This document shows positions 6,524 through 33,070 of a stretch of 33,201 bases of DNA, piece after piece; positions within the stretch are counted from its first letter, which is position 1, and every line of letters starts with the position of its first letter. The position numbers were made by a program, and so were the translations under genes. Origin of the DNA: Gracilibacteraceae bacterium (GTDB lineage: Bacteria; Bacillota; Desulfitobacteriia; Desulfitobacteriales; Syntrophobotulaceae); assembly GCA_031266805.1 (NCBI GenBank), contig JAISAH010000066.1, positions 1 to 33,201 of the forward strand, given 5' to 3'. Under the pieces are notes generated by a model, which worked only from the letters and a program-made list of their open reading frames with translations, ran no database searches and had not been told where the DNA came from.

Positions 6524-6553
6524 GGGATAAAATCTCCTTTTCAATTTTATGGC

Positions 6554-6586
6554 AAAAGAAAAAGGACACGGAGTAACCCATGTCCT
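6554..6586 (-). terminator. Terminator-like hairpin in the adhesin leader (possible attenuator)
   Basis: On the minus strand, AGGACATGGG pairs with TCCGTGTCCT around a TTAC loop (eight Watson-Crick pairs plus two G-U), followed by TTTTCTTTT (6562-6554). It lies between the stop of the stalk-domain gene (6620) and the adhesin ATG (6523), and ends about 31 bases before that ATG. I see no convincing promoter after it, so adhesin expression would depend on readthrough or on regulated antitermination. Confidence 0.6.
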
Positions 6587-6619
6587 CAAACAATGGATCT
6601 GTTCAGTTGCCGGTCCTTG

Positions 6620-7679: not shown

Positions 7680-8450
7680 TCAGACGATTTCGCGGCATTG
7701 CAGCGCCCAGCGGAGTTCTGGGGCGCTTATGACACAGGTGATGAGGGTGAGGACGTTATTCGTCGTCTGGCCCAGCTTGGAATAATCGGTCTCGCTGATC
7801 TGCTCCTTGCTGTACACTTCATAGGTTCGCGTTCCGTAAAGCGTGGTGTAGGTGATCCTGTCGCCGATCTGCAAGTCCTTGACAAAACTGAAATACGGCC
7901 AGCTTCCGCGGTTATGGCCGCAAAGCCCGACATTGCCGTTCCATGCCGAGGTGGATGAGAAATGTCCCGCACCCTTTTGAAGGTTGGCTAAATCCTCGCC
8001 CTCATATATTTTGATGGTTTCTCTCGTCCGGGCGACATAGATCATGCCGATAGAACCGTCAGAATAAAACATTGGCTGGGCGCCCGCCGCGACGGAGGTA
8101 CTCGGCAGGAAGCCGCCCGGTAGGTCGGGAGTTGCGGAGGACGCGCCGCCCATTCCATTGTAGCCGTCGCCCGCGCCGGCCGGCGTATTGTCGTGATAGA
8201 GGCTGGACGGGTCTGTGGGGATCTCGCCGCTTCCGTAGAAATACGGCGGCGGTAGCGCGGCGTTATCCTTGTCCCGCCGGATGTTTTCGCTCATGAAGGC
8301 GGGGGAAAGCGGCTTGTCCGTGCCGGTAGGTTTCCCGAAAATCAAACCGCTGTCCGGGCCGGAGCCGAACGTGTGATCGGCGGCCGGCGCGGGAGCGGCC
8401 ACGCCTGCACACAGGACAAGCGTCAGAATCGCGATAAACAGTTTTCGCAT
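7680..8450 (-). CDS. Sortase (class D-like transpeptidase)
   Basis: A 256-aa membrane-associated cysteine transpeptidase. ATG 8450 follows AAGGAAG and yields an N-terminal hydrophobic signal/anchor (MRKLFIAILTLVLCAG). A Pro/Gly-rich spacer of about 115 residues separates this from the catalytic domain. The sortase triad is visible: His179 in GHNRG, Cys239 in LTLITC, and Arg about 247 in APELRW. The LQIGDRITY and YEVYSKEQI strands typical of the sortase barrel lie between His and Cys. Family knowledge: sortases cleave LPXTG-type motifs between Thr and Gly and link the protein to the wall or to another subunit. Its obvious substrate is the LPRTG adhesin two genes downstream. The class assignment (D-like rather than B) is from motif appearance only. 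Confidence 0.88.
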   Translation of the reverse strand: MRKLFIAILTLVLCAGVAAPAPAADHTFGSGPDSGLIFGKPTGTDKPLSPAFMSENIRRDKDNAALPPPYFYGSGEIPTDPSSLYHDNTPAGAGDGYNGMGGASSATPDLPGGFLPSTSVAAGAQPMFYSDGSIGMIYVARTRETIKIYEGEDLANLQKGAGHFSSTSAWNGNVGLCGHNRGSWPYFSFVKDLQIGDRITYTTLYGTRTYEVYSKEQISETDYSKLGQTTNNVLTLITCVISAPELRWALQCREIV

Positions 8451-8474
8451 AGAGTTTTCACTTCCTTCATATGA

Positions 8475-8504
8475 TGTATGCAAAATATATGCAAATGTGT
8501 ATGC
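8475..8504 (+). repeat. Three phased TRTATGC repeats upstream of the sortase gene
   Basis: Plus strand: TGTATGC at 8475, TATATGC at 8486 and TGTATGC at 8498, starting 11 and 12 bases apart, so all face the same side of the helix. They lie 25-54 bases upstream of the sortase ATG, inside an AT-rich 79-bp gap (8451-8529) that contrasts with the GC-rich surroundings. The layout fits a regulator binding site overlapping the sortase promoter. I see no clear -35/-10 pair there. Confidence 0.45.
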
Positions 8505-8529: not shown

Positions 8530-9384
8530 TTAAATGCCAGAGATCACTCCTTTCAAGCGTTCTTCGGCAAGACGGCAGTAGCCGGGGTTGAGGTCAATGC
8601 CTATATACCGCCTGCCGAGTTTCAGCGCGGCCTCGCCGGTCGTGCCAGATCCAAAAAACGGATCTAAGACAACGCCGCCCGGAGGGCAGCCCGCGAGGAC
8701 GCAAGGAGTGATCAATTCCACCGGGTAGGCAGCAAAATGCGCGCCGCGATAACTTTTTGCGCTGCATGTCCACAGGTCTCGGAGGTTGCGCGTGTCAGCC
8801 AGTTTTACTTCCCTTCCGGCGCGGCTAGGACGGGGCTTGCTCAATGTCTGAGCCCTCTGACCGGGCACGGCGGCGGCGTATTTGTGATCATTCGACACGG
8901 CGCGTTTCATGCGCGCGTGGGTCCCCGCCGCTACGGGCTTTGCCACCGCCTGCCTGTCGTAATAATACTGCGGCGACTTGGATAGCAGGAAGATATGCTC
9001 ATAAGAGCGCGTCGGGCGGTCACGGCAGCTTTCGGGGAGCGCGTTGGGCTTGTGCCAGATGATCGCGCTCCGCAGATACCAGCCGTCGTCACGCAGGGCG
9101 AACGCCAGCCGCCACGGCACGCCAAGCAGCTGTTTTTCGGCGTAGGAATCGGCAATGACTATCCAGAGCGTGCCGTCGCGAGCGAGAACGCGCCCGACTT
9201 CGCGGAACACCTCTGTCAATCGGGTGATATACCTGTCCAGGGTCTGCTCCAGTCCTATCTGGCCCTTCACACCATAATCCCGGAGTCCATAGTAGGGCGG
9301 GGATGTGACGCAGCAGCTTACGCTCTCATCGGGGAGCGTCCGCAGGGTTTGAGTCGCGCCGCCGCAGATGATCTGATTGCCCAT
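8530..9384 (-). CDS. Beta-class DNA amino-methyltransferase (N4-cytosine or N6-adenine)
   Basis: A 284-aa enzyme transferring methyl from S-adenosylmethionine to an exocyclic amino group in DNA. The catalytic motif IV TSPPYYGL (residues about 28-35) precedes the AdoMet-binding motif DPFFGSGT (about 240), the circular order of beta-class enzymes. The S/TSPPY form is more common in N4-cytosine enzymes, so that specificity is favoured but not proven. WHKPNALPESCRDRPTRSYE and YYYDRQ between the two fit this group. ATG 9384 is preceded by AAGGGGGG and starts 14 bases after the upstream stop. No restriction endonuclease is adjacent, so it looks like an orphan enzyme protecting the element or marking its DNA. 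Confidence 0.88.
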   Translation of the reverse strand: MGNQIICGGATQTLRTLPDESVSCCVTSPPYYGLRDYGVKGQIGLEQTLDRYITRLTEVFREVGRVLARDGTLWIVIADSYAEKQLLGVPWRLAFALRDDGWYLRSAIIWHKPNALPESCRDRPTRSYEHIFLLSKSPQYYYDRQAVAKPVAAGTHARMKRAVSNDHKYAAAVPGQRAQTLSKPRPSRAGREVKLADTRNLRDLWTCSAKSYRGAHFAAYPVELITPCVLAGCPPGGVVLDPFFGSGTTGEAALKLGRRYIGIDLNPGYCRLAEERLKGVISGI

Positions 9385-14028: not shown

Positions 14029-15849
14029 TTACCGCCCGCCGCCCTTGCCCATGTAGCGCAGTTTGTAGTCCGCTATGTCAAAGCGTATCAGCATCCGCTT
14101 TGACCCGGCGAAAAGCAGGGCGTAGCCGCGCTTCTTGTTGAACAGATGATCCTGCTCCACCTCGGTGAGATTGTACAATTCGGCGGTCTCGGTAAGGTTC
14201 TTTCCATCACAGCCCATCAGGATCTTGTACGCCGGTATGTCCATGAGCGCCTGCCCATACATCTTTACAGCCGGATCAAGAAAATCCACGACCGAATGGG
14301 AGATGATCACCAGTCCCGCCTCGTATTTGCGGGCGCGCTTCGCCACGTTGCGGAGAAAAATAAGGCTCTGCGGCACGTTCGGGTCAACCAGCAAATAGGC
14401 CTCGTCGCAAACCAGCAGGACTTTTTCCCCCCGATCCTTGCTCATCTGCTCCCACGCCCAGGTCAGAATGTTGTAATACTGCGTCTTTTTGATGGTGTCG
14501 GACATGCTTTGCAAATCAAAGGTGTCAAGGCAGATGAACCGGCTCTTGGGGCTGACCGTCGTGGCTCCGTTCCATAGAAATGAATCGCTGCCCTCAGCAA
14601 GCTCGCGCGCGACGATCGTCAGATATTCCAGATTTTTCTTATCCCCAGACATTTCAAGCCGCTGCTTCAAGAGAGCGTACAAATCGGCGAATGTAGGGAA
14701 GGCATCAGGCTTCATGCCCGTGACATCCGTGTCCCATGTGATCCCAAAGCCCTTATACAGTTCTTCCAGCGCCTGTTTCAGCAGGGCTTTTTGTATTTCC
14801 GTCAAATCCGGCATATACAGCTTCATAAAGACTTCAAAGGTTTTGAAGTGTAAAGCCAGCGCGCCCATGCCGGAACCCTCGTTGGAATACAGCTTTTCGC
14901 TCTCGTCCTCGTCGTCTGCCGGCGCGGGGCGCGGCTCCAAAGGGTTAATGCGTCCGCCCGCGCCGCCGCCGCAGTTGATCCAGTCGCCGCCCAGACGCTG
15001 GCACATGTCTTTCATTTCCCGTTCCGGGTCAACGCAGATAATTTTCGTGCCGCTCATGTACTCGGAGAGGATAAAACTCTTGGCGGCGGTGGACTTCCCC
15101 ACGCCGGCCACGCCAAGGATCACAAAGTTGGTATTGGTGCGGTCTCCGCCGCGCAGCCACGGGTCGATCACCACAAGTCCGCCTTGCGCGTCCTTGGCGA
15201 AGTAGCAGCCGTCCCGGTCGGAAAAGCCGGAACTGGCGAACGGCATACCGCCCATAAACGTGCTGAGCGGCACATTGCGCCGGGTGATGCCGCGGATCAC
15301 CTCCGGCATGACGTGATAAGGCGCGACGGCCTGATAGGCCTCTTTTTGCAGATTGGCCAAGACCCGGATCCGGCAGCGCAGAGTGGCCACGGCGCTCTCG
15401 ATCCCTCGGCAGATTTTCTCCAGCGCCGCCTCGTCCTTTGCCACCGGCATGATGAGGTTGCTCATATAGCCCACAGTTTCGCCGTTCTGGTCGATCTGGC
15501 GCATGAGGCGTTCCGCGTCGTCCGCCGATTTTTCCGCCCGCTGCCGCGCAAGCGCGTCCCGCGTGCTTTCGGCAATCCCCCGGTACTGCGTCACGCTCCG
15601 GGAGAGGTGTTCAATCAAAGCCCCGCTCACGCAAGGTTCAAATATCTGGCAGCTGACGGCGCGGGGGATGTTGGATATTTTGGACAGCCAGCCGGGGTCA
15701 ATGCTCTGCGGATATTTGGTGATGGCATAGACCTTTGCCACATTCTCGCCTATGACGATTTTTGCCCGTTGAAATTCCAGCCCGCCCATCGGCGTGATGG
15801 CATTCAGAAGCGCGTTGTTTATGGGCACGGCTTCTTTAACCGTTTTCAT
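14029..15849 (-). CDS. virB4: VirB4-type conjugation ATPase
   Basis: A 606-aa ATPase that powers the type IV secretion channel at the inner face of the membrane. ATG 15849 follows AAAGGAG and lies inside the end of the upstream gene (14-bp overlap), so the two are coupled. Residues 1-200 form the N-terminal VirB4 domain. Walker A is GVAGVGKST (about 246-254), followed by the ICVDPEREMKDMCQRLGGDW and INPLEPRP segments typical of the family. Walker B is LLVCDEAYLL (about 476-485), followed by the RKYEAGLVIISHSV segment. It is shorter than the roughly 800 residues of many VirB4 proteins; the missing N-terminal part appears to be supplied by the 216-aa product of the preceding gene. Confidence 0.95.
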   Translation of the reverse strand: MKTVKEAVPINNALLNAITPMGGLEFQRAKIVIGENVAKVYAITKYPQSIDPGWLSKISNIPRAVSCQIFEPCVSGALIEHLSRSVTQYRGIAESTRDALARQRAEKSADDAERLMRQIDQNGETVGYMSNLIMPVAKDEAALEKICRGIESAVATLRCRIRVLANLQKEAYQAVAPYHVMPEVIRGITRRNVPLSTFMGGMPFASSGFSDRDGCYFAKDAQGGLVVIDPWLRGGDRTNTNFVILGVAGVGKSTAAKSFILSEYMSGTKIICVDPEREMKDMCQRLGGDWINCGGGAGGRINPLEPRPAPADDEDESEKLYSNEGSGMGALALHFKTFEVFMKLYMPDLTEIQKALLKQALEELYKGFGITWDTDVTGMKPDAFPTFADLYALLKQRLEMSGDKKNLEYLTIVARELAEGSDSFLWNGATTVSPKSRFICLDTFDLQSMSDTIKKTQYYNILTWAWEQMSKDRGEKVLLVCDEAYLLVDPNVPQSLIFLRNVAKRARKYEAGLVIISHSVVDFLDPAVKMYGQALMDIPAYKILMGCDGKNLTETAELYNLTEVEQDHLFNKKRGYALLFAGSKRMLIRFDIADYKLRYMGKGGGR

Positions 15850-16486
15850 GGCCTGCTCCTTTCGCCGCCAGCATAGGGATTGCCGGGGCCACGTCCTCAT
15901 CTTCCAAGTGAGCGTAATTCGGGTTGGCAAACAGGTTCAGCAAGCGGATCACCGTGCCTTGACCGCACAATTCCGCTGTGATCTCACAACCGGAGAAACG
16001 GGTTTCAAGTTCCCGCGCCCGGCGCAGCAGTTCTTTCTCCCCGTCGCCGGAAGCGTGTTCCCACAGGATAATGTAAAACTGCCGCTCTGTGACCTCGCCG
16101 GTCAGCGCGAACGCGCTCATTTCCCGGATTTCATGGTGCAAGAGATCTTTTTGCGCGGCGCCTGTGGCCTCGGTCAACAGCCTGGCCAGACGCGCCGACA
16201 TGCCGGAGATGTCAACCGGCCGGGAGATGGAAAAGAACTTGAAGCCTTTCTTTTCCGCCGAGAACTCGGCGGCAAAACTCTTGATTTTCTTCTCTTTTTC
16301 GCGGGGAGACAAGAGATCAAGACTGATGGGCTGGATCCGCAGGAACGCGAACAGCAGAGAGTCCTTGCCATAGAGGACGGGACCGCGAACATCCTTGACG
16401 TTCACAAACTCCCCCGCGGTCTGCGCCCGCCGCTCGGCGCCGGCATCTCCCTGCTTTTTATTGCTGAATAAACCCAGCAAGCTCAA
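15836..16486 (-). CDS. VirB4 accessory protein (PrgI-VirB4 intergenic conjugation protein)
   Basis: A 216-aa soluble protein. TTG 16486 is favoured: it overlaps the stop of the PrgI gene as TTGA, and a GGGGGG run lies 7 bases ahead. ATG 16501 in the same frame is the alternative. Conserved-looking elements include a F-V-N-V-K-D-V-R start, LRIQPISLDLLS and FKFFSISRPVDIS (about residues 30-100). I associate these with the protein that precedes VirB4 in Tn1549-like elements. It has no Walker motif and no membrane segment. It probably acts as, or with, the N-terminal domain of VirB4. Its last 14 bases overlap the VirB4 start. Confidence 0.72.
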   Translation of the reverse strand: MSLLGLFSNKKQGDAGAERRAQTAGEFVNVKDVRGPVLYGKDSLLFAFLRIQPISLDLLSPREKEKKIKSFAAEFSAEKKGFKFFSISRPVDISGMSARLARLLTEATGAAQKDLLHHEIREMSAFALTGEVTERQFYIILWEHASGDGEKELLRRARELETRFSGCEITAELCGQGTVIRLLNLFANPNYAHLEDEDVAPAIPMLAAKGAGHENG

Positions 16487-16806
16487 TTTTCGTCCCCCCA
16501 TTCGCCTGTGTAGCGGTACGGATATTTGCGCTGTTCCCGCATAAAGCGCAGGACGCATTTGCTCTGATCGACGACGCTCATGTTGTTTTCACCCTTCGCC
16601 AAGGCCATCACCGACGCCGCCACAGTGACAAGCACCATCAAAACCGGCAGGATCGCCTCGCCAAAGGCGGCATGGATCACAAACGCGAAAAAGCCGCTCA
16701 CGAGAGCGGCGGCGACGGTTGGCAATAGTTCAGCCATGCCGTAACCCTCGAACAGCTCAAACCGGGTCTTGATGTTCACGGGAATATACAGACTTGTTTG
16801 TTCCAT
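16483..16806 (-). CDS. PrgI-family conjugation membrane protein
   Basis: A 107-aa protein with the classic PrgI layout: a short soluble start (YIPVNIKTRFELFEGYG), two membrane helices (about 29-46 and 50-69) and a basic C-terminal tail (LRFMREQRKYPYRY). ATG 16806 follows GAGGTGATC. PrgI proteins are VirB3-like partners of VirB4 in Gram-positive channels. The gene order PrgI, accessory protein, VirB4 supports this. Confidence 0.85.
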   Translation of the reverse strand: MEQTSLYIPVNIKTRFELFEGYGMAELLPTVAAALVSGFFAFVIHAAFGEAILPVLMVLVTVAASVMALAKGENNMSVVDQSKCVLRFMREQRKYPYRYTGEWGDEN

Positions 16807-17042: not shown

Positions 17043-17888
17043 TCACTTTGACAACGCGCCCCTCGCCATCTGATACAGGCGGGACGTGTGGTAAACGGTG
17101 TTGACGACGCCGGCCCCCGCGCCCCCGGCGCTCAAAACGAACTCCTGCAAGAACTTGGGCGTCCGCATGGCGACAAATACGATAGCCAGCGCGTAGAAGC
17201 AGTTGCCGAGTATCATCACGGTCAGAGACAATTTCACAAGCGCGATCTGGATCAGCACCGTCGCGGCGTTCATAAAGAACTTTTTCATGTACGGCGCGAA
17301 AATCCCCTTGTCGCTGTCGATAAGGCCGGCGCAGGCTATGGGCACACCCACGCGCATGACCATCATTTCAATGCCCCTCATCATAAACTGCACCCAAAGC
17401 ATCAGGTACACAATGACGAGGATCAGTCCCGCCAGAGCCATGAAAATGCTGTTGCTGATGGTGTTCACGATCATGTCCGTCACGCTCTGCTGGTTTGTGA
17501 GCTGGTCGATCATCATGACGGTTTGGTCAATCAGCTGCGTGGTGACGGAGATCAGCGCGTCATACAGAATGGGGAAGCAGAGGGCGACCACCATAGCCCG
17601 CAAAAAGTTCGTCACGAGAGCCAGGGGATCCAAATCCGGGTCGCCGTCGCTCCAGCCGACGTAAATATCAAAGCCCTTTTTTAGGAATTTGAGGACAATG
17701 AGGCTCACGCCGAAACCAAAGAACAAATCGTACAAGCCGGAGAAGTCGATGACGTGGCCGCCGATGGCGGTCGCCATATAGTTTTCCGCGTAAAATGCCA
17801 TCGGGATCAGACCGCTTAGCATGACGTCCACGATGAACTGCGAGCCCATGATGACGGCAATGATCAGCCCTATCAATATCCATTCCAA
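17043..17888 (-). CDS. VirB6/TrbL-like polytopic channel protein
   Basis: A 281-aa integral membrane protein with about six hydrophobic helices, no signal peptide and few charges outside the loops. The start is TTG 17888, behind GAGGTGAG at normal spacing. The central loop VGWSDGDPDLDPLALVTNF and the long helix-rich second half match TrbL/VirB6-like proteins of Gram-positive ICEs, which form the membrane part of the DNA channel. It sits directly after the VirB2-like gene and before the small two-span protein and PrgI, as expected for the mating-pair formation cluster. Confidence 0.85.
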   Translation of the reverse strand: MEWILIGLIIAVIMGSQFIVDVMLSGLIPMAFYAENYMATAIGGHVIDFSGLYDLFFGFGVSLIVLKFLKKGFDIYVGWSDGDPDLDPLALVTNFLRAMVVALCFPILYDALISVTTQLIDQTVMMIDQLTNQQSVTDMIVNTISNSIFMALAGLILVIVYLMLWVQFMMRGIEMMVMRVGVPIACAGLIDSDKGIFAPYMKKFFMNAATVLIQIALVKLSLTVMILGNCFYALAIVFVAMRTPKFLQEFVLSAGGAGAGVVNTVYHTSRLYQMARGALSK

Positions 17889-17933: not shown

Positions 17934-18293
17934 TCACTGATAGTAGCTGACGATGAGCTTGATAATGACCGAGGCGAGTACCACGCCTATACAGCAGATG
18001 ATCGCGGTGGAGATGCGCGTGTTCCATTTCTTGTGGTCAATTTCGTCCGATACCGTCTTGCGGATCAGGTAATAGATCACCGCCACGACGGCCACGAGGG
18101 GCGCGACGACCAGCAGCCACGAGGTCACGTCATTGACGAGCTTTTCCGTGCCGGTGGCGAGCTTGGAGCCTCCGATGCCTCCCGCGAACACGGGAGCGGG
18201 CAGTGTAAACGCCCACACAGACAGCGCTGCGGCAAGGGGCCGCTCCAGCGCGCTGGATAAGAACGCGCCGATTTTGCGGATAAGAGTTTTCAT
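17934..18293 (-). CDS. VirB2/TrbC-like (Maff2-type) small membrane protein
   Basis: A 119-aa precursor with an N-terminal signal sequence (residues about 1-37, cleavage near VFA-GG) and a mature part with two hydrophobic helices (about 61-79 and 97-117) separated by a basic loop (RKTVSDEIDHKKWNTR). This is the shape of VirB2/TrbC pilin-like and Maff2 proteins. The ATG overlaps the stop of the VirD4 gene as ATGA (18293-18290). GGAGG lies 11 bases upstream. Placement between VirD4 and VirB6-like genes agrees. Confidence 0.78.
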   Translation of the reverse strand: MKTLIRKIGAFLSSALERPLAAALSVWAFTLPAPVFAGGIGGSKLATGTEKLVNDVTSWLLVVAPLVAVVAVIYYLIRKTVSDEIDHKKWNTRISTAIICCIGVVLASVIIKLIVSYYQ

Positions 18294-20044
18294 AGGTTTT
18301 CAAGCCTCCATTCTTTATCGCTCAGATCTTTCGGGCGAAATCTATTCGCCTGTTTGAACCGGGTAAACATCTCGTCGATCTCTTGCCCGGCTTTCGCGGC
18401 GCCGGCCACGCTGACCGCGCCGGGAAACACTCTGGCGGGAAGCCGCAGCATCCCGTCTTCAATATATTCCTGTTCCAGCTCCGCGCCTCCGCGTTCATCA
18501 CAGGAGGGGGACGCGCTTTTCTTCGGGCGGTACTTGTCCCAAACGCCCCAAAGCTCAATGGTTGTGGGCGCCCGCGCTTCCCGTTTCTTTTCCCGCACCT
18601 CCCTCAGTCTGCGGTTATGCTCCGGGTCGCCCATGCCCAGCGCCTGGTTGAAGCGCCATTCCGATAAATCCGGCAGCTTCATCACGGCCGGATACTGACC
18701 CGTCAGCATCACAAGGGCGTAAGGCCGCTCAATGCGAAGTATTTCATCCTCCGTCAAAAGCGGCCGGGCGATCAGGTTCATGGAATTGCTCACGCTGCCC
18801 CCCGGCGCTGCGGAGGAATTGTAAGAGCTTGACCGGGAATAGCTGGATGTGGTGTACTGGCCGAGCTTCTTTGAGATTTGCGTCGCGGTTTCCACATTAG
18901 CGGTTTTGAGGTAAATCCAGCAATGGCAGTTGTCAGTAATGGTCTGCGCCTGCTCCCGCCCATACTTATGCTCGATTTGGCTGATGGACTGCACGAACAG
19001 GTTAAAGCGGCAGCCGCGTCCGCCGCCCACGGTCAAAAGGTTCGAGAACGCCGGGATCTCCGTGAAATTCCCAAACTCGTCAAGAAAGAAATTGACGCGC
19101 ACTTTCAATCTGCCGCCGCGCTCGTCGGCGGCCTCTGTCAGCGCTACATAATGCTGGTAGACGAACAGAGAGGCGAGAGAGTAGAATGTCACTTTTTCAT
19201 CGGGCAAAATTATAAAGATGACGCGCCGCTTGCTTCCCGTGTCGGCCAGCGCAAAATCGCTGGCGGCTGTCTGGCTGTAAATGTTCTCGCCTGTGAACAG
19301 GCGAAGCGTGGTCAGCGCCGCTGTGAAGAAGCTGCCCCGCGTCCGGGATGGCGCGATCTGTGCGATGCCGAACAGCCCCTTTGCCGGATGGCTGTCAGGG
19401 ATTTCCGTGATGTACTTGTTGATTGGCATGTCGCTGCCCTCGGCGCGGCACATGTTGAGGATAAAATGATAGACATTGGTGAGATTTTGGTATTGCGGCT
19501 GTTCTTGGTTATCGAACACGACCGACATGATCGCGCCAGCGACGACCGACGCCTGCCCGTCGTTCCAAATCCGTTCCCCTTTTTCGTCGGCGGGGACGAG
19601 GGATGATGTAATATCCCATACGAGGTCAACGGCTTTGGCGCTCACGCCCTGGTTCACCGCGTCTATCACCGGCTGGAGGAAGTTGTAGCGGCTGGATTTC
19701 AGGGGATTTTTGAAGTCGAGACATATCACTTCATAATCAAGCCGTCTCAAGTACGGCGCGCAGTAGGCGGCCAGTTCGCCTTTCGGGTCGTTCACCACCA
19801 TGCTTTCACCGGCAAGCGCGGTATAGGCGATGCTCTGGAGTACGATGCAGCGAGATTTTCCGCTGCGGGTCGCGCCGATGGTGAGAGAGTGAACGTCGCC
19901 GGAAAGGTAATGGATCTGTTCTGTCCGCCCGTGTTTGCCGTAACCGACGACAAGACCGCCTTGCGCGCCTTTATTGATTTTCGTCAGGCGCTTCGGGCAT
20001 TGTCTCAATGCCCGAAGCGGCGACGCCAGCAAGTTTTTTGGCAT
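18290..20044 (-). CDS. virD4: VirD4/TraG coupling ATPase, soluble part
   Basis: A 584-aa ATPase that links the relaxase-DNA complex to the channel. Walker A is GATRSGKSR (about 57-65), followed by VVNDPKGELAAY and LDFKNPLKSSRYNFLQP, typical of this TraG/VirD4 branch. Walker B is FFLDEFGNF (about 318-326), followed by a LLTVGGGRGCRFNLFVQS segment. The usual membrane-spanning N-terminus is absent; it is encoded by the upstream gene in another frame, which overlaps this one by 74 bases. ATG 20044 has its own ribosome site (AGGAAGGAG, 10 bases upstream, inside the upstream gene). The ORF is open slightly further (to 20083), but without a better start. Confidence 0.93.
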   Translation of the reverse strand: MPKNLLASPLRALRQCPKRLTKINKGAQGGLVVGYGKHGRTEQIHYLSGDVHSLTIGATRSGKSRCIVLQSIAYTALAGESMVVNDPKGELAAYCAPYLRRLDYEVICLDFKNPLKSSRYNFLQPVIDAVNQGVSAKAVDLVWDITSSLVPADEKGERIWNDGQASVVAGAIMSVVFDNQEQPQYQNLTNVYHFILNMCRAEGSDMPINKYITEIPDSHPAKGLFGIAQIAPSRTRGSFFTAALTTLRLFTGENIYSQTAASDFALADTGSKRRVIFIILPDEKVTFYSLASLFVYQHYVALTEAADERGGRLKVRVNFFLDEFGNFTEIPAFSNLLTVGGGRGCRFNLFVQSISQIEHKYGREQAQTITDNCHCWIYLKTANVETATQISKKLGQYTTSSYSRSSSYNSSAAPGGSVSNSMNLIARPLLTEDEILRIERPYALVMLTGQYPAVMKLPDLSEWRFNQALGMGDPEHNRRLREVREKKREARAPTTIELWGVWDKYRPKKSASPSCDERGGAELEQEYIEDGMLRLPARVFPGAVSVAGAAKAGQEIDEMFTRFKQANRFRPKDLSDKEWRLENL

Positions 20045-20498
20045 GGCCGGCGATCTCCTTCCTGTCCCGCGCCCCGGCTTCAAGGAGCGCGGCGAATATG
20101 GGCTCCGCTTGTTCCAGACGGTACAGCGCGAACGCTTTCCCTCGCTCAGCTGGTTTCAGCCAGCGCGCCGTGCCGTGCTGCCCCTGCCCGACGGCGACCG
20201 GGGTGCTGATGCTGCCGGCCACCGCCGACGTGTCGCTCTCAAAAGTCTCTCGGCGACTCATCAGCATGAGCGCGGCGATCCCAGACTCGGTGACGAAAGA
20301 GACGCAGAGGGTCAGCAGCCGGTAGCGCTCGTCGGTCGTGAAACTGTCAAGCAGGGCGGCGGGGCGCAGGGCGGCGATGCCCTTCATGTTCCCGCCCGTA
20401 AGCAGGAGGTTGACATACCCGGCAAAGAAAAAGCCGGCGACCAGCCCGATTGCCGACAGAAAAATAAACAACATGATTTTCATTTTCGTTTTGTTCAT
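19971..20498 (-). CDS. VirD4 N-terminal membrane subunit (separate gene)
   Basis: A 175-aa protein with two N-terminal hydrophobic segments (about 6-31 and 55-78) and then a GQHGTARWLKPAERGKAF element. A GTARW/GSARW motif is what follows the membrane helices in one-piece VirD4/TraG proteins. Its last residues are in the frame -1 to the coupling ATPase and stop at 19971, where the ATPase frame continues with GGLVVGYG. Together the two make one complete coupling protein. ATG 20498 follows GGAG at 5 bases; GTG 20504 is the alternative. I take it as a natural two-gene version because the downstream part has its own strong ribosome site. Confidence 0.72.
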   Translation of the reverse strand: MNKTKMKIMLFIFLSAIGLVAGFFFAGYVNLLLTGGNMKGIAALRPAALLDSFTTDERYRLLTLCVSFVTESGIAALMLMSRRETFESDTSAVAGSISTPVAVGQGQHGTARWLKPAERGKAFALYRLEQAEPIFAALLEAGARDRKEIAGHAKKLAGVAASGIETMPEAPDENQ

Positions 20499-20561
20499 AG
20501 TCACTCCATTTCCATCGCGTAATCCTCAAGTTCCGAAATGAGGCCGTGTATTTTGTTATTG

Positions 20562-21803
20562 TTATCGCTCCCAGTCGTAGTTACCGGAATTTTCCAGTTT
20601 CAAGACCAGCTCCTTTCTCGCCTGTTTGGACAGTTCACCTGTGTGGTAGGCGAGCTTGTTTTCCTCTGCGCGGGCGGCGCGGGAGAGGATGCCGAAAAGT
20701 TCCGTGATCAGGCCTTCGATCATCTGCCGCCGGTATATTTCCCGCTTTTCCTCCCCTGTTTTGTCTCGCGCCTGTCCATTTATTTTCTTGACCGCTCGCA
20801 AGACGGCGCCCGCGAGCCGGGCCGTCATGTCGTCATAGGCGGCTTTTGCCGCCATTTCGTGGGACTCCGGCTTGTCCGTGTAGTATTTGCACAGGTCAGA
20901 GGCCGCCTGGACGTACTTCTTGAACTCCCGGTCACAGTCGTTGTTTTTCTCCAAAACCTTTTCAATAAAAGCGCGAATGCCGTCCTTGACCTCCGGGGGC
21001 ATGAGCTTGAAACTCAACCGCCCGGTCCTGGGCACGAGAGCGCACAGACGCAGCAGCCTGGCGGCAAGCTCCCGCGTATCGGCGGTGTTGAAACGGCTGT
21101 ATATGAGGGAGGCGCCCGAAAGGTCGCTCTCCCGGTTGAGGCGTTCCACCGCCGCGGCGTACTCCTTCGGCGTCATATCGGCGAAAGCGCCGGCGAACCG
21201 GCCAAAAAAGCCGTTTGCGTTAGCCAACGCCGCCTTGCGGGCTTCATTCTTCATGGTTTGCAGCGCCGCCATTTCCTCGTCGAATACATATTTGATCAGC
21301 CCCGCGCGGATAGCGCTGGATACCTTCGGCGCGACGAACGCCTTTTTTTTCACTTCCTGCGCCTTGTCCCAAAAGAGGATATGGCAATGGGGATGTCTTT
21401 TGTCACGGTGGACGGCAGCGGTATATTCGAGATTTTGTATCGGTATGCCGATCTTCTCGCACATATCCGGCAGACGCGCCCACACAAGTTCCCGCCACTT
21501 TTTCGCGTAGTCGTAACCGAGCCGCAGGGCGTCGGCCTCTGTCAGCGAGATCACGACGCGATAGGCAATGACGCCCTCGCGGGTCTTGGTTTCGATATGG
21601 CGGGACAGTTCCCTCAAATTCTTGACTTCCTCGGCTTTTTTGCCGTCTACGATCCCGAAAAGGCCGTGCTTTGACCCCTCGCTTAGCACAACGCCGGGCC
21701 TGCGTCCGATATACTCCATGTGCGCGCGGTTGCGCTGCGGCGCGTCACGCGAGCGCGGACTGACTACCCGCAGCTTATACACTACGGTGGAAATACGCGC
21801 CAC
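20562..21803 (-). CDS. MobP-type relaxase (MobP3-like)
   Basis: A 413-aa DNA-nicking enzyme that starts conjugative transfer at oriT. The likely nicking tyrosine is in MEYIGRRPG (about residue 31). The metal-binding histidines are in HRDKRHPHCHILFWD (about 131-145), the HxH-type motif of MobP relaxases. The remaining C-terminal 230 residues are helical and charged, without further motifs I recognise. GTG 21803 follows the stop of the upstream remnant (TAG, then GGG), with AAGGA slightly upstream. The adjacent VirD4 genes downstream and RHH gene upstream form the expected mobilisation block. Confidence 0.88.
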   Translation of the reverse strand: MARISTVVYKLRVVSPRSRDAPQRNRAHMEYIGRRPGVVLSEGSKHGLFGIVDGKKAEEVKNLRELSRHIETKTREGVIAYRVVISLTEADALRLGYDYAKKWRELVWARLPDMCEKIGIPIQNLEYTAAVHRDKRHPHCHILFWDKAQEVKKKAFVAPKVSSAIRAGLIKYVFDEEMAALQTMKNEARKAALANANGFFGRFAGAFADMTPKEYAAAVERLNRESDLSGASLIYSRFNTADTRELAARLLRLCALVPRTGRLSFKLMPPEVKDGIRAFIEKVLEKNNDCDREFKKYVQAASDLCKYYTDKPESHEMAAKAAYDDMTARLAGAVLRAVKKINGQARDKTGEEKREIYRRQMIEGLITELFGILSRAARAEENKLAYHTGELSKQARKELVLKLENSGNYDWER

Positions 21804-23783: not shown

Positions 23784-25231
23784 TTATACATGGCTCTCGC
23801 CTTTGCCGAGTCGCGCCGCGATATTCTGCATGATGTACGCCAGCACGTTCACGACGATGGAATTTCCGCACATCTGATAGCGCGCGGAATCGCTCATTGG
23901 TTTCCCGTCGTGGCCGTATTCCGTCCACCCGCGAGGCAGCGACATCAACAGTTCGCACTCCGCGGGCGTCAGACGGCGCACGACGTGTATCCGCGCCTGC
24001 TGCGTGTCCTGCGGGATCGGGCAATGAGGCTGCGCGATATATGTCTGCTGCTTCATGCCGGGATTTGCCGCGAGGCAGTCGGCGGTGTCACTTAGGTCGC
24101 GCACCTCGCTTCGCTGGTTCTGCGCGAAAGCAATGATATTCGGGCCGCCGTCCGCGTTGGGACTGCCCTCGCCCCGCGCCGTCAGCGTCCGGGCTATTTG
24201 CGGCTCACACACGCAGGGAACTTGGTTCAAGCCGCTGGGCGAGGCTTTCAGCGTCGGGGACACCATCTCATTGTAGGCGATACTGCGGGCGTTTTTCGCC
24301 TGTCCTGCCATGAACGCCGCGCAGATATACGGCTGCTCATGGTGGATTGTCAGCGTCGGGGCAAGATCGCGAAGCGTTTCCGCATTCGTCTGGCCGGACG
24401 CGGCCACGACGACGTTTGAGGGATGGCGGGGCTGGCTTTCGCCCTGCGCCCGGATGCTCCCCCGCCAATAGCCGCGCCTGGTTTCGCCATAGGCGTTCAT
24501 TTCGGTGATTCCGCCGCTCTCGCTTCCAGCGCCGCTTTCAGCATCGGCGGCAGTTCCTTTCCCCTCGCCCTCGCGCGCCGCAAAATACCCTGACAGGCTC
24601 GTGGGCTTAAAGAGTATTTCTCCGGCACATTCTCCTGTAAAATCGACGACAACAAACAGACGCCTTCTTCGCTGTGCGACTCGGTAATGTTTGGCAGCGT
24701 CTTTGACGATCCAAGCGAGACTAAAGCCTCGGCCTCGTACCATTCCGGCGTTTGCCCATCGGCCAGACTGAGGCATTGGAATTTCGCTCTCACAGAACGC
24801 TTTGAGCGCGGTCTGATAATCACGCCCGGCATAACTTCCTTTGCCGCTGGACAGGAGACCGACGACGTTCTCGAAGATGGCGATCTTGGGGTATTGTCCA
24901 TTCGTTTCTTCCCTCATTTCCCGTATGATCCTGATGGCTTCCATGAACAAACCGGATTTTCCCGCAAAGCCTGTGCGGGTTCCGGCGATTGAAAAGACTG
25001 GCAGGGTGAGCCGAAGGCGATAATGTCTGTCGGCTCTATCGCTCCGCCGTCGAGCTTTGTGATGTCGCCCAAGTGCGCCATATCGGGGAAATGGCGCTTT
25101 GTGACCGATATAGCGCCCGGCAGTATCTCGCTTGCCCATACCGGTGTTATCCCGAAATATGTTCCGGCGAGAGGCACGGCTCCGATCCCGTCAAAGAGGG
25201 AGCCGAGTTTAATGGCGGCGCTGCTGTTCAT
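23784..25231 (-). pseudogene. C5-cytosine DNA methyltransferase disrupted by a one-base frameshift
   Basis: The 5' part (from ATG 25231, overlapping the upstream stop as ATGA) encodes motif I (GSLFDGIGAVPLAG) and the catalytic motif IV (FGSPCQSF). Immediately after, the sense continues only in the -1 frame as FSIAGTRTGFAGKSGLF, then ENV (motif VI), QRRRRLFVV (VIII) and NSIVVNVLA (X) through 23784. A single missing T in the run at 24992-24995 explains it: with five Ts instead of four, the protein would read FGSPCQSFSIAGTRTG without interruption, about 482 residues. The 5' ORF runs on to a stop at 24914. The long variable region between VIII and IX (about 200 residues) would be the target-recognition part. 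Either a mutation or a sequence error in a homopolymer. Confidence 0.82.
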
Positions 25232-27760: not shown

Positions 27761-30700
27761 TTACATCTCCGGCTCGTTCTCGGCCTCCTCATCGTCCATG
27801 CCGGTGACATCTTCATTTTCTGGCTCAGGAGGCCGGTTGCCGTCGTCCAAAAGGGCGCCGTCGTCCGCACTCCGGTCAAGGTCAAGCTCCGCAGTGATCT
27901 TGGCAAGCTCCGAGAGTACGGACGCCAGCTCCCGTTCCTGCTCAAACGGGCGGGTCAGCCGTGTTTTTGAGGCTTCCAGCCGCCGCTCCAAGTCCGCGGC
28001 CTCGCGTCTATCGTCGTCAAGGTAGGTTTCCAAGCGTTCAAGAGCGTTTTCGATCCGGGTGATGCTGCCCGCATCGCTCCTTGACAATGCGACCTTGTGA
28101 GACCTTGCGCCTTTCAAAGCAATGACAGGCTCGTCGACGAGGCTCTTTCGCTCCTGAGGAACTATGTCAAAGCCCAGGTAGCGGCCAATGGCTTTATCCA
28201 CGTGCCGGCCCGACGAAACGGCTTTCAATAGCATTTCGCCCGCTTCTTTTCTCTCTGAAAATTCATGCTTGCCGAGCCGCATGTGAAACTCCGGCTTGCC
28301 GTCCCCACCCTTTGCCGTCTGCCCGTCCCTGAGCTTTATGTCCTCCTCAAAGCCCCGTATCTCACCGGCGAGCTTTGCCAACATCGCGGGGATATGCCCA
28401 GATATATCGTCCTCCAGCCTGTAACGGTCATACCGGTACTGCGATTCAAGGATTTGCAGCCGCTGGGCTTCAAGCTCCAATTCCATTCTGCGCTTGATCA
28501 AGGGGTTGCCGGTGGCGATGGCCTTGACCTCGGCGTAATTCAAAACCGTCTCATCCATGTCCTCAATCTCGCGGGAGGGGTTCTTGCCGCTCATCACCTG
28601 GGCGATGGCTTTGGCTTTGGACTCCACGATCTGCCAGAGGTAAGCATCGAAGCTGTTTTTTGTGACATACTGATATATCCGCACCTCCGGGTTGTCATTG
28701 CCCTGACGGACGATCCTGCCGTCGCGCTGTTCGAGGTCGGAGGGGCGATAAGGGCAATCCAAATGATGCAGCGCTATCAGCCGTTTTTGCGCGTTAGTGC
28801 CCGCGCCCATCTTCTGCGTACTGCCGAGGATCACGCGGATGTCGCCGCGCCGGACTGCGGCGAACATTTTCTCCTTCTGCTCGTCTGTTTTCGCGTCATG
28901 GATAAAGGCGATCTCCGAGGGCTCGGCGCCCATGTCGGTCAGTTTTTCGCGTATGTCGTCGTAGACGGAAAAGCCCGCGCCGCCTTTTGGTGTTGAGATG
29001 TCGCAGAAAATCATCTGCGCGGATTTATCCTTTGCCGTCTCTTGGTAAATCTCAAAGACCGTTTGAACGCAAATATTGACTTTGCTGCCTCCAAAGTCAG
29101 GCAGGGCGGCATTGATGCACCGCATATCCAGCGCGGCGTTTCTGCCGTCCGAGGTCACGCAGAGCATGTTATCGACTTCCGGCTTGACTGCGCCGTTTTG
29201 TATGCGCTCCGCGCGCTCGACAAGCGATTCCGTATACTTCCGCAGCTCAGGCGAGGGCTCTGCGGCGACCGTCACCGGCTTGCCGCCCATAATATCGGGA
29301 ACGGGCAGATCAAGCATGTCGGCGGTCTGAATGTCCGCCACGAGATGAAACAGGGTCATCAATTCAGGCAGATTAACGAATTTGGCAAACCTCTCCCGCA
29401 CTCTAATGCCTTGGCCGCTCGGCGCCAGTTCCAACGCGGACACCACCTCGCCGAACGCCGTCGCCCAGTTGTCGAAATGATTGAGACCGAGGCGTTCCAG
29501 TTCCTCCCGCTGCAAATAGCTCTGCATGGTGAAAAACTCGACCATCGAATTGCTGACGGGCGTGCCAGTGGCAAACACCACTCCGCGCGGGGAATGATTG
29601 CGCTCGTTGATGTATTCGCATTTCATGTCCATATCGGTGGATTTTTTGGCGCGGGCCTTTGACAGTCCCGCCACATTATTCATCTTCGTAAAAAAGAACT
29701 TATTTTTGTAATAGTGAGCCTCGTCCACCATCAGGGCGTCCACGCCCAATTCCTCAAAGTTGACGAGGTCGTCTTTCGGGCTGTCTCGCAAGCATTTTAA
29801 TTGGTACTCAAGATTTTTGCGCTCTCGCTCAAGTTCCTTTACGGTGATCCGCTCGCCGCTATTCGTCTTTGCCTCGATCAGCGCCGCCTCTATCTCGCCG
29901 AGATCGCGCTGTAACCGTTTTTCCTGGCGCTCCCGCGACATCGGCACCTTTTCAAAGCTGCTGTGCCCGATGATCACGGCGTCCCATTCCCCGGTGGCGA
30001 TGCGCGCGCAGAAACGGCGGCGATTTTCTTTCTGAAAATCCTTTTTGGTGGCGGCGAGTACGTTCGCCGTGGGGTAGAGAGCTTGAAACTCGTTCGCCCA
30101 CTGGCCGACAAGATGATTGGGCACAACAAAACAGGGTTTTTGGGCGAGGCCAAGCCGCTTTTGTTCCATAGCGGCGGCTGTCATGATGTAAGTCTTGCCG
30201 CTGCCAACGACATGGGCCAAAAGCGTATTGCCGCCGTAGAGGATCCTTGCCACCGCCGCCTTTTGGTGAGGCCGCAAGGTTTTCTCCGGGTTCATGCCGG
30301 GGAAGGAAAGGTGCGCGCCGTCATAAGCGCGGGAGCGCTCCGAGTTGAACAGCCGGTTATATACCGCGCAGAGACGCTCCCGCCGCTCCGGGTCGTCGAA
30401 CACCCAGCTTTTGAACTCCTGTTTAAGTTTTGCCTGGCGGGCACGAATAGCGACGGTCTCTTTATGATTCAGTCCGCGCTTTTCTTTGCCGTCCACGATC
30501 TTGACGTCATATATCCGGGCGTTGCGCTGGTTCAGCGTGAGTTCAAACAGATAGCAGGCGTCCATGCGCTTGGTGCCGTACTCCTGCGTCGCCTCCACAG
30601 AGCCTTGAAGCCTGTAGCCAATGCCTGCCGTCCATTCGCCGGTGCGCTCGGAATAATGCACCTTCACGCCTGCACGCGCGGCGGCGGGGACGTTCAGCTT

Positions 30701-33070
30701 CTCACAAAGGAATCGCTCGTAATCCTCCGGCTCGATCCAATGGGCGCCGATGCGGGCGCTGATCTCGTGCGCTTTCAGCGGCTTAGGCTGAACGGCGCGG
30801 AGCGCTTCAATGTTGGCGGTATAAATCGGATTATCCGCCGCCGCCAGTTCCGCCGCCGCCAATTTGTCCGTTACGCGCCCGGAAAGGTATTCGTCGGCGG
30901 TCTCCCAGCCCGCGAAAATATTGTTCTCGTCGTCCGGGTCGTCATAATCAGGGTTTTTGAAGATCACACCCCGCAGGTCGGCGATCACCTCCTCATGGGT
31001 TTCGCCGCAAAGGGAGGCCATGAAGCCGACGTCCACGCGCCCACGCTCGTTGAGGCAGATCGGCAGGGCCTCCGCCGCGGTGTCGGCGTGGGTTATCCGT
31101 TTCTCCGGCGCGATGGTGCGCCCTGTAAAGATGGCGGCTTTGGTCACGTTGCCGTCGTCAAGATTTTCGATGGAGGACAGCAGCGGAAAGTCCGCGTCGT
31201 CGCCGAACAGCCGCGTATTGTACCCGGAGTTGATCGGGCCGAAGCGCCTGAAAAAACGGTCGTACCGTTCGTTTAATTCAAGCTGTGACCGCTGTAAATA
31301 TTCATCGGTACAGCCTTCAAGCTGCTGGGTCAGCATAAACCGCGTGAGGGCGCGCATTTCGATCATGGATTTCACGCGCTCGGCGGCGGTTTTGCCGAAT
31401 TCGCGCCGTTCCATGTGGGAATTGACGCGCTGATATATTTCACCGTCCTCCATAACGGTATAGCAGTAATTTTTCACGGCGAGGTCGGCGGGTATACCCG
31501 TTTCCGCGTCGTCAAGCCTGCCTAGACCGGAGGCTTCGTCCACCGCGCCCTCCGGCAGAAATTCTGCCGCCTCAAGCAGAGCCTCTCTTAAATCGCGTTT
31601 GTCCGGGTTCAATGTGGTTTCGCTGTTGTTCCCGTACATGCGGTTGTCAAAAGCCATCGCGCCGAGCATCATGTGAGGATTGTCGATATAATATTCGTTA
31701 AGGGGGATACCATCGCCGGTCTTGCCCGTGTAAACCCATTTCTCATTTTCGGCGTCCACAAGGCGGTCGCGCTTTTTGAGAAAAATAATGTCGCTTGTGA
31801 CCTCCGTGCCCGCCGAAGCTTTGAAGGCGGTATTGGGCAAGCGGATCGCGCCCAAAAGTTCCGCGCGCTCGGCGATGTGGCGGCGAGCCGACGTATTCGC
31901 CTTGTCCATCGTGCCTTTGCTGGTGATGAACGCGATCACGCCGCCCGGTCTGACCTTATCCAGCGCTTTTGCGAAAAAGTAGTCGTGGATCAGAAAATTG
32001 TATTTGTCAAACCTGGTGTCGTTCACTTTGTACTGCCCAAAGGGGACATTGCCGATGGCGGCGTCGAAAAAGCTGTCGGGAAGATCGGCGGTCTCGAAAC
32101 CCTGTATGCGTATATCCGCGCCCGGATAAAGCTGCCGGGCGATGCGGCCGGTGACGCCGTCCAGTTCCACTCCGTAGAGCCGGGACGCCGCCGCCAGCTT
32201 CTCCGGCATACAGCCGTAGAAATTGCCGACGCCCAACGCTGGCTCCAACACATTGCCGCCTTTAAAGCCGAGGCGGTCGAGCGCGGCGTATATGCCGCCA
32301 ATCACTTCGGTGGACGTGTAATGCGCGTTGAGTACGGAGCCTTGCGCCTTGCGGTATTCGTTTTCCGGCAATAGCTCCAGGAGCTCGCTATGCTCGCGCC
32401 GCCAGCCTAAGTGATTGCCGTCAAAGACCTGTGAAATACCGCCCCAGCCGGAATATAGCGCAAGTACTGCCTGTTCCTCCGGTGCGGCGTAGCGGTTCTC
32501 GCTTTCAACTATCTGCAAAAGCCGGATCGCGTCCGCGTTGCGGCGGTACTTGATTTTCGCGCCGCCGCCCCCTATGTCGATGTCGCCGGTTATATGAAAG
32601 TTCGGCGGTTTGGGCATGTCAGGCTGAACGGGCGTGAGTTCAGACGGCGGCGGAGGGGCGAGAGCTTCCAAATCATCGCCGCTCTCCTCGTTATCGGAGT
32701 TATCCGCTTCTATATCGAATATGGACGTCTGAGTGGCCGCGGCCTTGCGCGGTCTGCGCGGGGCGGGCTGCTGCCGCGCGCGCCCGCTCGCCTCGCTCAA
32801 TTTCGCTATGACAGGTTGGGGAAAAAGATTCTCTCCCGGAAACGCGGAAACGCCGCTCGGTTCATCGCCCGGATCGAGCGGCGCGTTAGCGGAAATATTC
32901 GGGGGTTCTCCGGACGGCGCTGTTTCTTTCTCATCCTCGCCAAGCGGCGGCTCTATGCCGACTTTCTTGGCGTAGGCGTCTATCGCCTCAGTCCAGCCGT
33001 TGATTGCCGTCACGTTCCCGTCCGCACCATAGAGTATTTCGATTTCCTCGCCGCGGGATATGACGGTCAT
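27761..33070 (-). CDS. Fused DNA methylase-SNF2 helicase of conjugative elements
   Basis: A 1,769-aa protein. Residues 1-170 are low-complexity and acidic. A Rossmann methylase domain follows (about 200-430): AdoMet loop NVLEPALGVGNFYG (about 273) and GNVPFGQY (about 339) in place of the usual NPP[YF]. The SNF2-type helicase part has motif I AHVVGSGKT (about 950), DEAH box VDEAHYYKN (about 1115), ATGTPVSNS, and motif VI RDGRIVRQGN (about 1448). A charged helical tail ends the protein. Known relatives in Gram-positive ICEs are often longer, with extra N-terminal domains, so this is a short form. Role: probably DNA remodelling or protection against host restriction. ATG 33070 has only a weak A/G-rich ribosome site, but a stop lies seven codons upstream. 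Confidence 0.9.
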   Translation of the reverse strand: MTVISRGEEIEILYGADGNVTAINGWTEAIDAYAKKVGIEPPLGEDEKETAPSGEPPNISANAPLDPGDEPSGVSAFPGENLFPQPVIAKLSEASGRARQQPAPRRPRKAAATQTSIFDIEADNSDNEESGDDLEALAPPPPSELTPVQPDMPKPPNFHITGDIDIGGGGAKIKYRRNADAIRLLQIVESENRYAAPEEQAVLALYSGWGGISQVFDGNHLGWRREHSELLELLPENEYRKAQGSVLNAHYTSTEVIGGIYAALDRLGFKGGNVLEPALGVGNFYGCMPEKLAAASRLYGVELDGVTGRIARQLYPGADIRIQGFETADLPDSFFDAAIGNVPFGQYKVNDTRFDKYNFLIHDYFFAKALDKVRPGGVIAFITSKGTMDKANTSARRHIAERAELLGAIRLPNTAFKASAGTEVTSDIIFLKKRDRLVDAENEKWVYTGKTGDGIPLNEYYIDNPHMMLGAMAFDNRMYGNNSETTLNPDKRDLREALLEAAEFLPEGAVDEASGLGRLDDAETGIPADLAVKNYCYTVMEDGEIYQRVNSHMERREFGKTAAERVKSMIEMRALTRFMLTQQLEGCTDEYLQRSQLELNERYDRFFRRFGPINSGYNTRLFGDDADFPLLSSIENLDDGNVTKAAIFTGRTIAPEKRITHADTAAEALPICLNERGRVDVGFMASLCGETHEEVIADLRGVIFKNPDYDDPDDENNIFAGWETADEYLSGRVTDKLAAAELAAADNPIYTANIEALRAVQPKPLKAHEISARIGAHWIEPEDYERFLCEKLNVPAAARAGVKVHYSERTGEWTAGIGYRLQGSVEATQEYGTKRMDACYLFELTLNQRNARIYDVKIVDGKEKRGLNHKETVAIRARQAKLKQEFKSWVFDDPERRERLCAVYNRLFNSERSRAYDGAHLSFPGMNPEKTLRPHQKAAVARILYGGNTLLAHVVGSGKTYIMTAAAMEQKRLGLAQKPCFVVPNHLVGQWANEFQALYPTANVLAATKKDFQKENRRRFCARIATGEWDAVIIGHSSFEKVPMSRERQEKRLQRDLGEIEAALIEAKTNSGERITVKELERERKNLEYQLKCLRDSPKDDLVNFEELGVDALMVDEAHYYKNKFFFTKMNNVAGLSKARAKKSTDMDMKCEYINERNHSPRGVVFATGTPVSNSMVEFFTMQSYLQREELERLGLNHFDNWATAFGEVVSALELAPSGQGIRVRERFAKFVNLPELMTLFHLVADIQTADMLDLPVPDIMGGKPVTVAAEPSPELRKYTESLVERAERIQNGAVKPEVDNMLCVTSDGRNAALDMRCINAALPDFGGSKVNICVQTVFEIYQETAKDKSAQMIFCDISTPKGGAGFSVYDDIREKLTDMGAEPSEIAFIHDAKTDEQKEKMFAAVRRGDIRVILGSTQKMGAGTNAQKRLIALHHLDCPYRPSDLEQRDGRIVRQGNDNPEVRIYQYVTKNSFDAYLWQIVESKAKAIAQVMSGKNPSREIEDMDETVLNYAEVKAIATGNPLIKRRMELELEAQRLQILESQYRYDRYRLEDDISGHIPAMLAKLAGEIRGFEEDIKLRDGQTAKGGDGKPEFHMRLGKHEFSERKEAGEMLLKAVSSGRHVDKAIGRYLGFDIVPQERKSLVDEPVIALKGARSHKVALSRSDAGSITRIENALERLETYLDDDRREAADLERRLEASKTRLTRPFEQERELASVLSELAKITAELDLDRSADDGALLDDGNRPPEPENEDVTGMDDEEAENEPEM

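Follow-up and report, generated by a model that had tools for sequence, protein, structure and literature searches.

The stretch analysed here (the window) is the whole of the 33,201 nt at positions 1-33,201 of contig JAISAH010000066.1, and it carries, among a set of type IV secretion system (T4SS) genes on the minus strand, two overlapping genes that together resemble a VirD4-type coupling protein (Table 1). The upstream gene, for which the in-frame ATG lies at 20498 (with a GTG at 20504) and the open reading frame ends at 19971, encodes a membrane half with two predicted transmembrane (TM) helices, followed by the segment VGQGQHGTARW and a cytosolic tail of 62 aa. The downstream gene encodes an ATPase half that starts with a basic leader of 28 aa (net charge +7) and continues with a GGLVVG strand, a Walker A motif (GATRSGKSR) and the motif DEFGNF; it has no TM helix, the peak 19-residue hydropathy ahead of the core being 0.01. 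The ATPase half passed the curated cut-off (250 bits) of the NF045973 model (conju_CD1115) with 305.9 bits (E 4.7e-91) and also matched PF02534 (T4SS-DNA_transf, E 7.9e-61) and PF12696 (TraG-D_C, E 4.3e-35), and none of the NCBIfam and Pfam models matched the membrane half. A preliminary description of this DNA had proposed exactly such a split, and the stop of the membrane gene, the start of the ATPase gene and the overlap of their frames were all confirmed in the open reading frames.

Table 1. Features of the coupling-protein locus, its T4SS neighbours in the window and the related gene pair of plasmid pRE25
Feature	Coordinates	Strand	Remarks
MobP3-family relaxase, directly upstream	20562..21803	-	NF041499, E 7.2e-53
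Membrane half of coupling protein, 175 aa	19971..20498	-	ORF list, hydropathy
Shine-Dalgarno-like AGGAAGGAG	20055..20063	-	within membrane gene, 10 nt ahead of ATG 20044
Overlap of both reading frames, 74 nt	19971..20044	-	ATPase frame +1 relative to membrane gene
ATPase half of coupling protein, 584 aa	18290..20044	-	ATG 20044; NF045973, PF02534, PF12696
Pilin-like T4SS protein (Mbov_0395 type)	17934..18293	-	NF045849, 39.5 bits, just below cut-off of 40; 4-nt overlap with end of ATPase gene
VirB6/TrbL-like protein	17043..17888	-	PF19597, E 2.6e-90
PrgI-like (VirB3-like) protein	16483..16806	-	PF12666, E 5e-4, under gathering score; 69-71% to L028 and L027
VirB4 N-terminal part, own gene	15836..16558	-	71% and 70% to same gene in L027 and L028
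VirB4 ATPase part, own gene	14029..15849	-	ATG 15849; NF045975, profile positions 304-888 of 894
pRE25 TraI/TraJ-like pair	L088:28044-28475 and 28468-30123		proteins of 143 aa and 551 aa

VirB4 is also encoded in two parts in the window. The N-terminal part, of which the listed start is 16558 and the true start may be further in, gave no match in Pfam and aligns with the N-terminal part of the one-piece VirB4 of loci L031 and L032; its gene overlaps that of the ATPase part by 14 nt, with AAAGGAG from position 15862. L027 and L028 have this split VirB4 as well. The C-terminal part was found in 14 distinct loci (L027, L028, L031, L032, L060, L065, L074-L080 and L086), in a frame of its own of 592-626 aa in ten of them (L060 by annotation, 614 aa) and in one frame with the N-terminal part in three (L031, L032 and L086), L080 being ambiguous; the N-terminal part was not found in two of the ten own-frame loci (L076 and L079). 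Judged by these frames, the VirB4 split is common in the wider group, and it does not follow the split of the coupling protein, which is a single piece in L060, L074, L075, L078 and L079. Further along the window, positions 170-6589 (minus strand) encode a surface protein of 2139 aa, a probable adhesin of the element, in which a thioester domain and 17 matches to SpaA were found; a sortase gene (7680-8483) is next to it. Positions 27761-33070 (minus strand) encode a protein of 1769 aa that has ResIII/helicase domains and also matches Eco57I methylase weakly, and two more DNA methylase genes lie at 8530-9384 and 23784-25139.

Both halves of the coupling protein have their counterparts in single proteins. 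In BLAST searches the membrane half matched the N-terminus of the one-piece coupling protein L029 (39% over 114 aa, E 2e-27) and that of L002, the second coupling protein of the same genome (33% over 141 aa, E 2e-18), matches that make it a homologue of the N-terminal part of one-piece coupling proteins. L029, L002 and the likewise one-piece L060 belong to the CD1115 family; L029 and L002 align in their matching parts with both halves of the window, and the operon around L060 resembles that of the window in having a MobP3 relaxase, a pilin and TrbL. All three consist of one open reading frame, and at the place of the stop and second start in the window they have a linker (99, 26 and 21 residues in L029, L002 and L060, respectively). 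The break therefore sits in the linker that separates the ARW block on the membrane side from the GGLVVG block on the ATPase side. An AlphaFold2 model of L029 reached a mean pLDDT of 59.7 and fell below 50 over residues 97-174, where the ARW segment lies, and over residues 221-253; its quality was too poor for the fit of the halves to be read from it. A sequence search of solved structures matched TrwB entries alone, weakly, and in a viral collection the single-protein query gave no relative and the alignment query one partial relative. For a Sulfobacillus coupling protein (L089, NC_016040.1) the annotated start at 2375 seems too late, as the open frame upstream of it has hydrophobic segments and GQHGTAHW.

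The closest relatives found among the GTDB contigs are L027 and L028, from other metagenome-assembled genomes (MAGs). Both show the two-gene form, and their ATPase halves are about 77-78% and 74% identical to that of the window (84% and 81% in the core). The next relative is L029 (62%), which is one-piece. The overlap measures 92 nt in L027 and 47 nt in L028, and the stop positions differ from that of the window; the ATPase ATG is found 19 nt past the same GAC codon in all three when the DNA is aligned. This comparison supported a two-gene form that is real and inherited and not a sequencing frameshift; the preliminary description, too, had taken the split for something other than a random frameshift, and the outcome in which all close relatives have a single frame was not encountered. 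The leader of the ATPase half carries a net charge of +7 in L027 and +6 in L028, and of -2 to +3 in the other eight systems listed. Docking of an acidic anchor tail with the basic ATPase leader fits the window, L027 and L028 but not these eight taken together, and we do not propose it as a general rule.

The preliminary description also placed a strong ribosome site at normal spacing inside the membrane gene, and such a site was confirmed. The stretch AGGAAGGAG does lie there, is predicted to pair with the anti-Shine-Dalgarno sequence at -11.2 kcal/mol and occurs once in the window when both strands are counted; its distance of 10 nt to the ATG is at the long end of the usual spacing. In the upstream stretch scored, an equally strong site was found for 1 of 38 start-like codons and at 1.6% of positions, so that AGGAAGGAG alone is modest, suggestive evidence and not decisive. 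The conserved position of the ATG and of the AGG core, which occupies invariant columns in the window, L027, L028 and also L030 (46% protein identity) within an otherwise variable stretch, argues more strongly for an internal start than the site itself. L030 has an overlap of 35 nt and the near-identical AGAAAGGAGATCGCCA ahead of its ATPase ATG. Pairing of -9 kcal/mol or stronger was found for 13 of the 16 two-gene starts that were scored, the three weak scorers (L020, L023 and L025) having a TTG immediately 3' of GGAGG, and an in-frame start preceded by such a site was present in five of 34 one-piece linkers. The script that searched for these linker starts recovered 11 of 17 two-gene loci, L055 and L056 being missed because of its search range.

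Gene pairs of the same kind were also found on plasmids. In pRE25, an Inc18 plasmid which we take to be akin to pIP501, the genes of the TraI/TraJ-like pair overlap by 8 nt and GAGGAGGGGG lies ahead of the ATPase start, inside the upstream gene. As in the window, the gene of a VirD4-like ATPase that has no TM helix directly follows that of a membrane protein, which in pRE25 has hydrophobic segments and the motif HGSAYW, and the TraJ-like protein is annotated in the NCBIfam CD1115 family. The pair differs from that of the window in that the ATPases share only 24% identity, the membrane halves give no significant BLAST match (E 0.086), the relaxase is of the MOBQ instead of the MobP3 type, the overlap is far shorter (8 versus 74 nt) and pRE25 lies elsewhere on the tree, with one-piece proteins in between. 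The HGSAYW motif and the hydrophobic layout, and only these, suggest that the upstream protein of pRE25 is a detached VirD4 N-terminus. We found 656 records matching pRE25 TraJ, and of nine further plasmid regions taken from these, five were two-gene and four one-piece; the two-gene layout occurs in plasmids of Staphylococcus, Lactobacillus, Lactiplantibacillus, Lactococcus and Terribacillus as well. A TraN-like protein mentioned in PMC4981023 points to kinship between pRE25 and pIP501.

A two-protein coupling protein as such is already known from pIP501, to which the window adds a further case. In the literature the TraI and TraJ proteins of pIP501 are described as a two-protein coupling protein (PMC4981023), in a review as the first of its kind, with Grohmann et al. 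cited for the precedent; coupling proteins without a TM domain are treated there as a subfamily (PMC7434980, PMC7431656), and TraI as the likely or proposed membrane anchor of TraJ (PMC13037476, PMC12857230), the binding of the two and their role in transfer being presumable only (PMC4981023, PMC13037476). The TraG-TraJ pairs, named as a class in the review PMC7434980, resemble the window in that the coupling protein has a partner in the membrane protein next to it, but there the coupling protein retains its own TM domain. The window shares with the two-protein kind an ATPase without TM helices and, encoded directly upstream of it, a small membrane protein with two hydrophobic segments; by a further mark, which is our own and not taken from the literature, this protein corresponds to a detached VirD4 N-terminus, as the BLAST matches to L029 and L002 indicate. 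Given the pIP501 precedent and the layouts of pRE25 and the other plasmids, the window belongs to a kind that has been described, and the rarity implied in the preliminary description was not supported.

Very probably, therefore, the locus encodes, in two genes, a VirD4-type coupling protein of the CD1115 family, belonging to an integrative or conjugative element whose relaxase is of the MobP3 type; its halves would rebuild the VirD4 unit. Points against two genes as the best explanation are that L029 is one-piece, that the genome has the one-piece L002 as a second coupling protein, and that, as described above, the internal site is not exceptional in itself and three of the 16 two-gene starts scored weakly. 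In the pathway of coupled translation, binding of the halves and activity in transfer that we infer from the sequences, the upstream gene would provide the membrane anchor, with its two helices and the conserved HGxARW segment, and the downstream gene a soluble FtsK/HerA-type ATPase. Ribosomes on the membrane gene would cross the internal Shine-Dalgarno site and start the ATPase at its ATG in the +1 frame, and one message would thus give both halves. Once bound to one another at the membrane, these would reconstitute a VirD4 unit of the ordinary kind, which would bring the strand bound by the relaxase to the channel; the same has been proposed for TraI/TraJ of pIP501. The earlier suggestion that the split is adapted for coupled translation is borne out in so far as the two-gene form is inherited; the internal start of the ATPase is read from the anatomy of the genes, and tight coupling is not required in every relative. 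This can be seen in the single-contig genome G023, in which an intact membrane half (L068:509-973) and an intact ATPase half (L068:1781-3382) lie 807 nt apart and the ATPase ATG is preceded by an AAAGGAG of its own. The gap in this region (L068:509-3382, at about 296508-299381 of G023:C1) holds an antisense open reading frame of 177 aa with a weak AAA_18 match, and with an unrelated gene between two intact halves these must be separate proteins.

Three other explanations of the layout were considered. Programmed ribosomal frameshifting could join the two frames into a one-piece protein, alone or beside the two separate products, and the same +1 relation is indeed found at all four long-overlap junctions (window, L027, L028 and L030). 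We regard this as improbable, because the near-identical loci L019, L020 and L023-L025 mix +1 and +2 relations (+2 in L023), the two genes are 1 to 77 nt apart in other two-gene loci and 807 nt apart, with an extra gene between them, in G023, and no slippery motif shared by the window, L027 and L028 was seen in their alignment when inspected by eye. The chances are slightly poorer still that the two genes are the inactive remnant of a decayed coupling protein and persist by chance, as the motifs are kept in both halves (Walker A, DEFGNF and HGxARW), the ATPase core is as conserved in L027 and L028 as noted above, the remaining T4SS operon is intact and syntenic, and pIP501, which has the same layout, is self-transmissible according to the literature. 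Least credible of the three is an indel introduced in sequencing or assembly, or else a recent frameshift, that split a one-piece gene and left the internal ribosome site as a coincidence: the halves do differ by a one-base frame change, L029 and L002 are one-piece, the linker is so variable that homology across the break is unreadable, and L053 exemplifies such a break, yet the two genes recur in L027 and L028 with other overlaps, other stops and an aligned start, in the distant L030 with a near-identical site before the ATG, and in G023 with a gene inserted between the halves. In L053 the coupling-protein gene is broken at a run of nine A and the one-piece sequence resumes in the next frame (at about 1330-1560, minus strand orientation), which is likely a sequencing or true frameshift, unlike the break in the window.

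The two-gene form also recurs. In a first count of 61 loci, 51 were classified and ten were dropped: the weak paralogues L003-L008, most of which are partial; L033 and L034, which duplicate L001 and L013; L038, at a contig edge; and the partial L061. Of the 51, 17 were two-gene, L053 then among them, and 34 one-piece. L053 was afterwards removed, since its interruption at a run of nine A resembles an ordinary frame break, and 13 plasmid loci were added. In the resulting set 22 of 63 coupling proteins were two-gene, a proportion that is no natural frequency since the loci were chosen for their resemblance to the window or pRE25 TraJ. The earlier statement that coupling proteins are normally in one piece is thus only partly right for the CD1115 family. 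A careful tree of 51 rows showed six layout changes, all forced by starred branches and one of them being L053, and a quick tree of 63 rows likewise showed six, all forced by starred branches. On the latter the two-gene forms fall into six groups as read from the Newick file: the window with L027 and L028; L015, L019, L020 and L022-L025; L011; L030-L032; L055 and L056; and pRE25 with the Staphylococcus, lactic-acid-bacteria and Terribacillus plasmids. As this tree has long branches, no bootstrap and no root, fission and fusion are not separable on it. In alignment A2 the rows of the membrane halves are misplaced near their ends.

In the two-gene forms examined, the break always falls in the same linker, a variable stretch that follows the HGxARW-type motif of the membrane piece and precedes the ATPase core. 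Two-gene forms in six tree groups, cut at one linker, suggest that coupling proteins lacking a TM domain are probably not a single lineage; nor did the two-gene forms fall into one clade with TraJ on the 63-row tree, as descent from a pIP501 lineage would have it. We somewhat favour the more general reading that the TM-less class is no lineage at all, that the Gram-positive CD1115-type VirD4 was cut (or joined) about six times at one linker and that TraI of the pIP501 type is the detached N-terminus. Neither the statement that TraI-type anchors are detached VirD4 N-termini nor the statement that the split arose repeatedly was found in a literature search, most subscription papers being outside its reach. 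What is added here to the pIP501 precedent, by comparison of sequences, is the count of two-gene forms, their distribution over six tree groups and the single shared linker as the site of the break.

These results turn what was an oddity of one plasmid family (TraI/TraJ of pIP501) into a recurrent arrangement, indicate what TraI probably is and mark the linker at which a VirD4 motor can be parted from the membrane anchor. If the general reading is true, the two halves are a general non-covalent two-part module, of which the overlapping genes and the internal ribosome site would set the ratio. The one-piece and two-piece sister proteins offer a comparison set for asking if DNA transfer depends in any way on a covalent connection of the motor to its anchor, and a coupling-protein gene that looks broken in an element of the Clostridia need not be broken.
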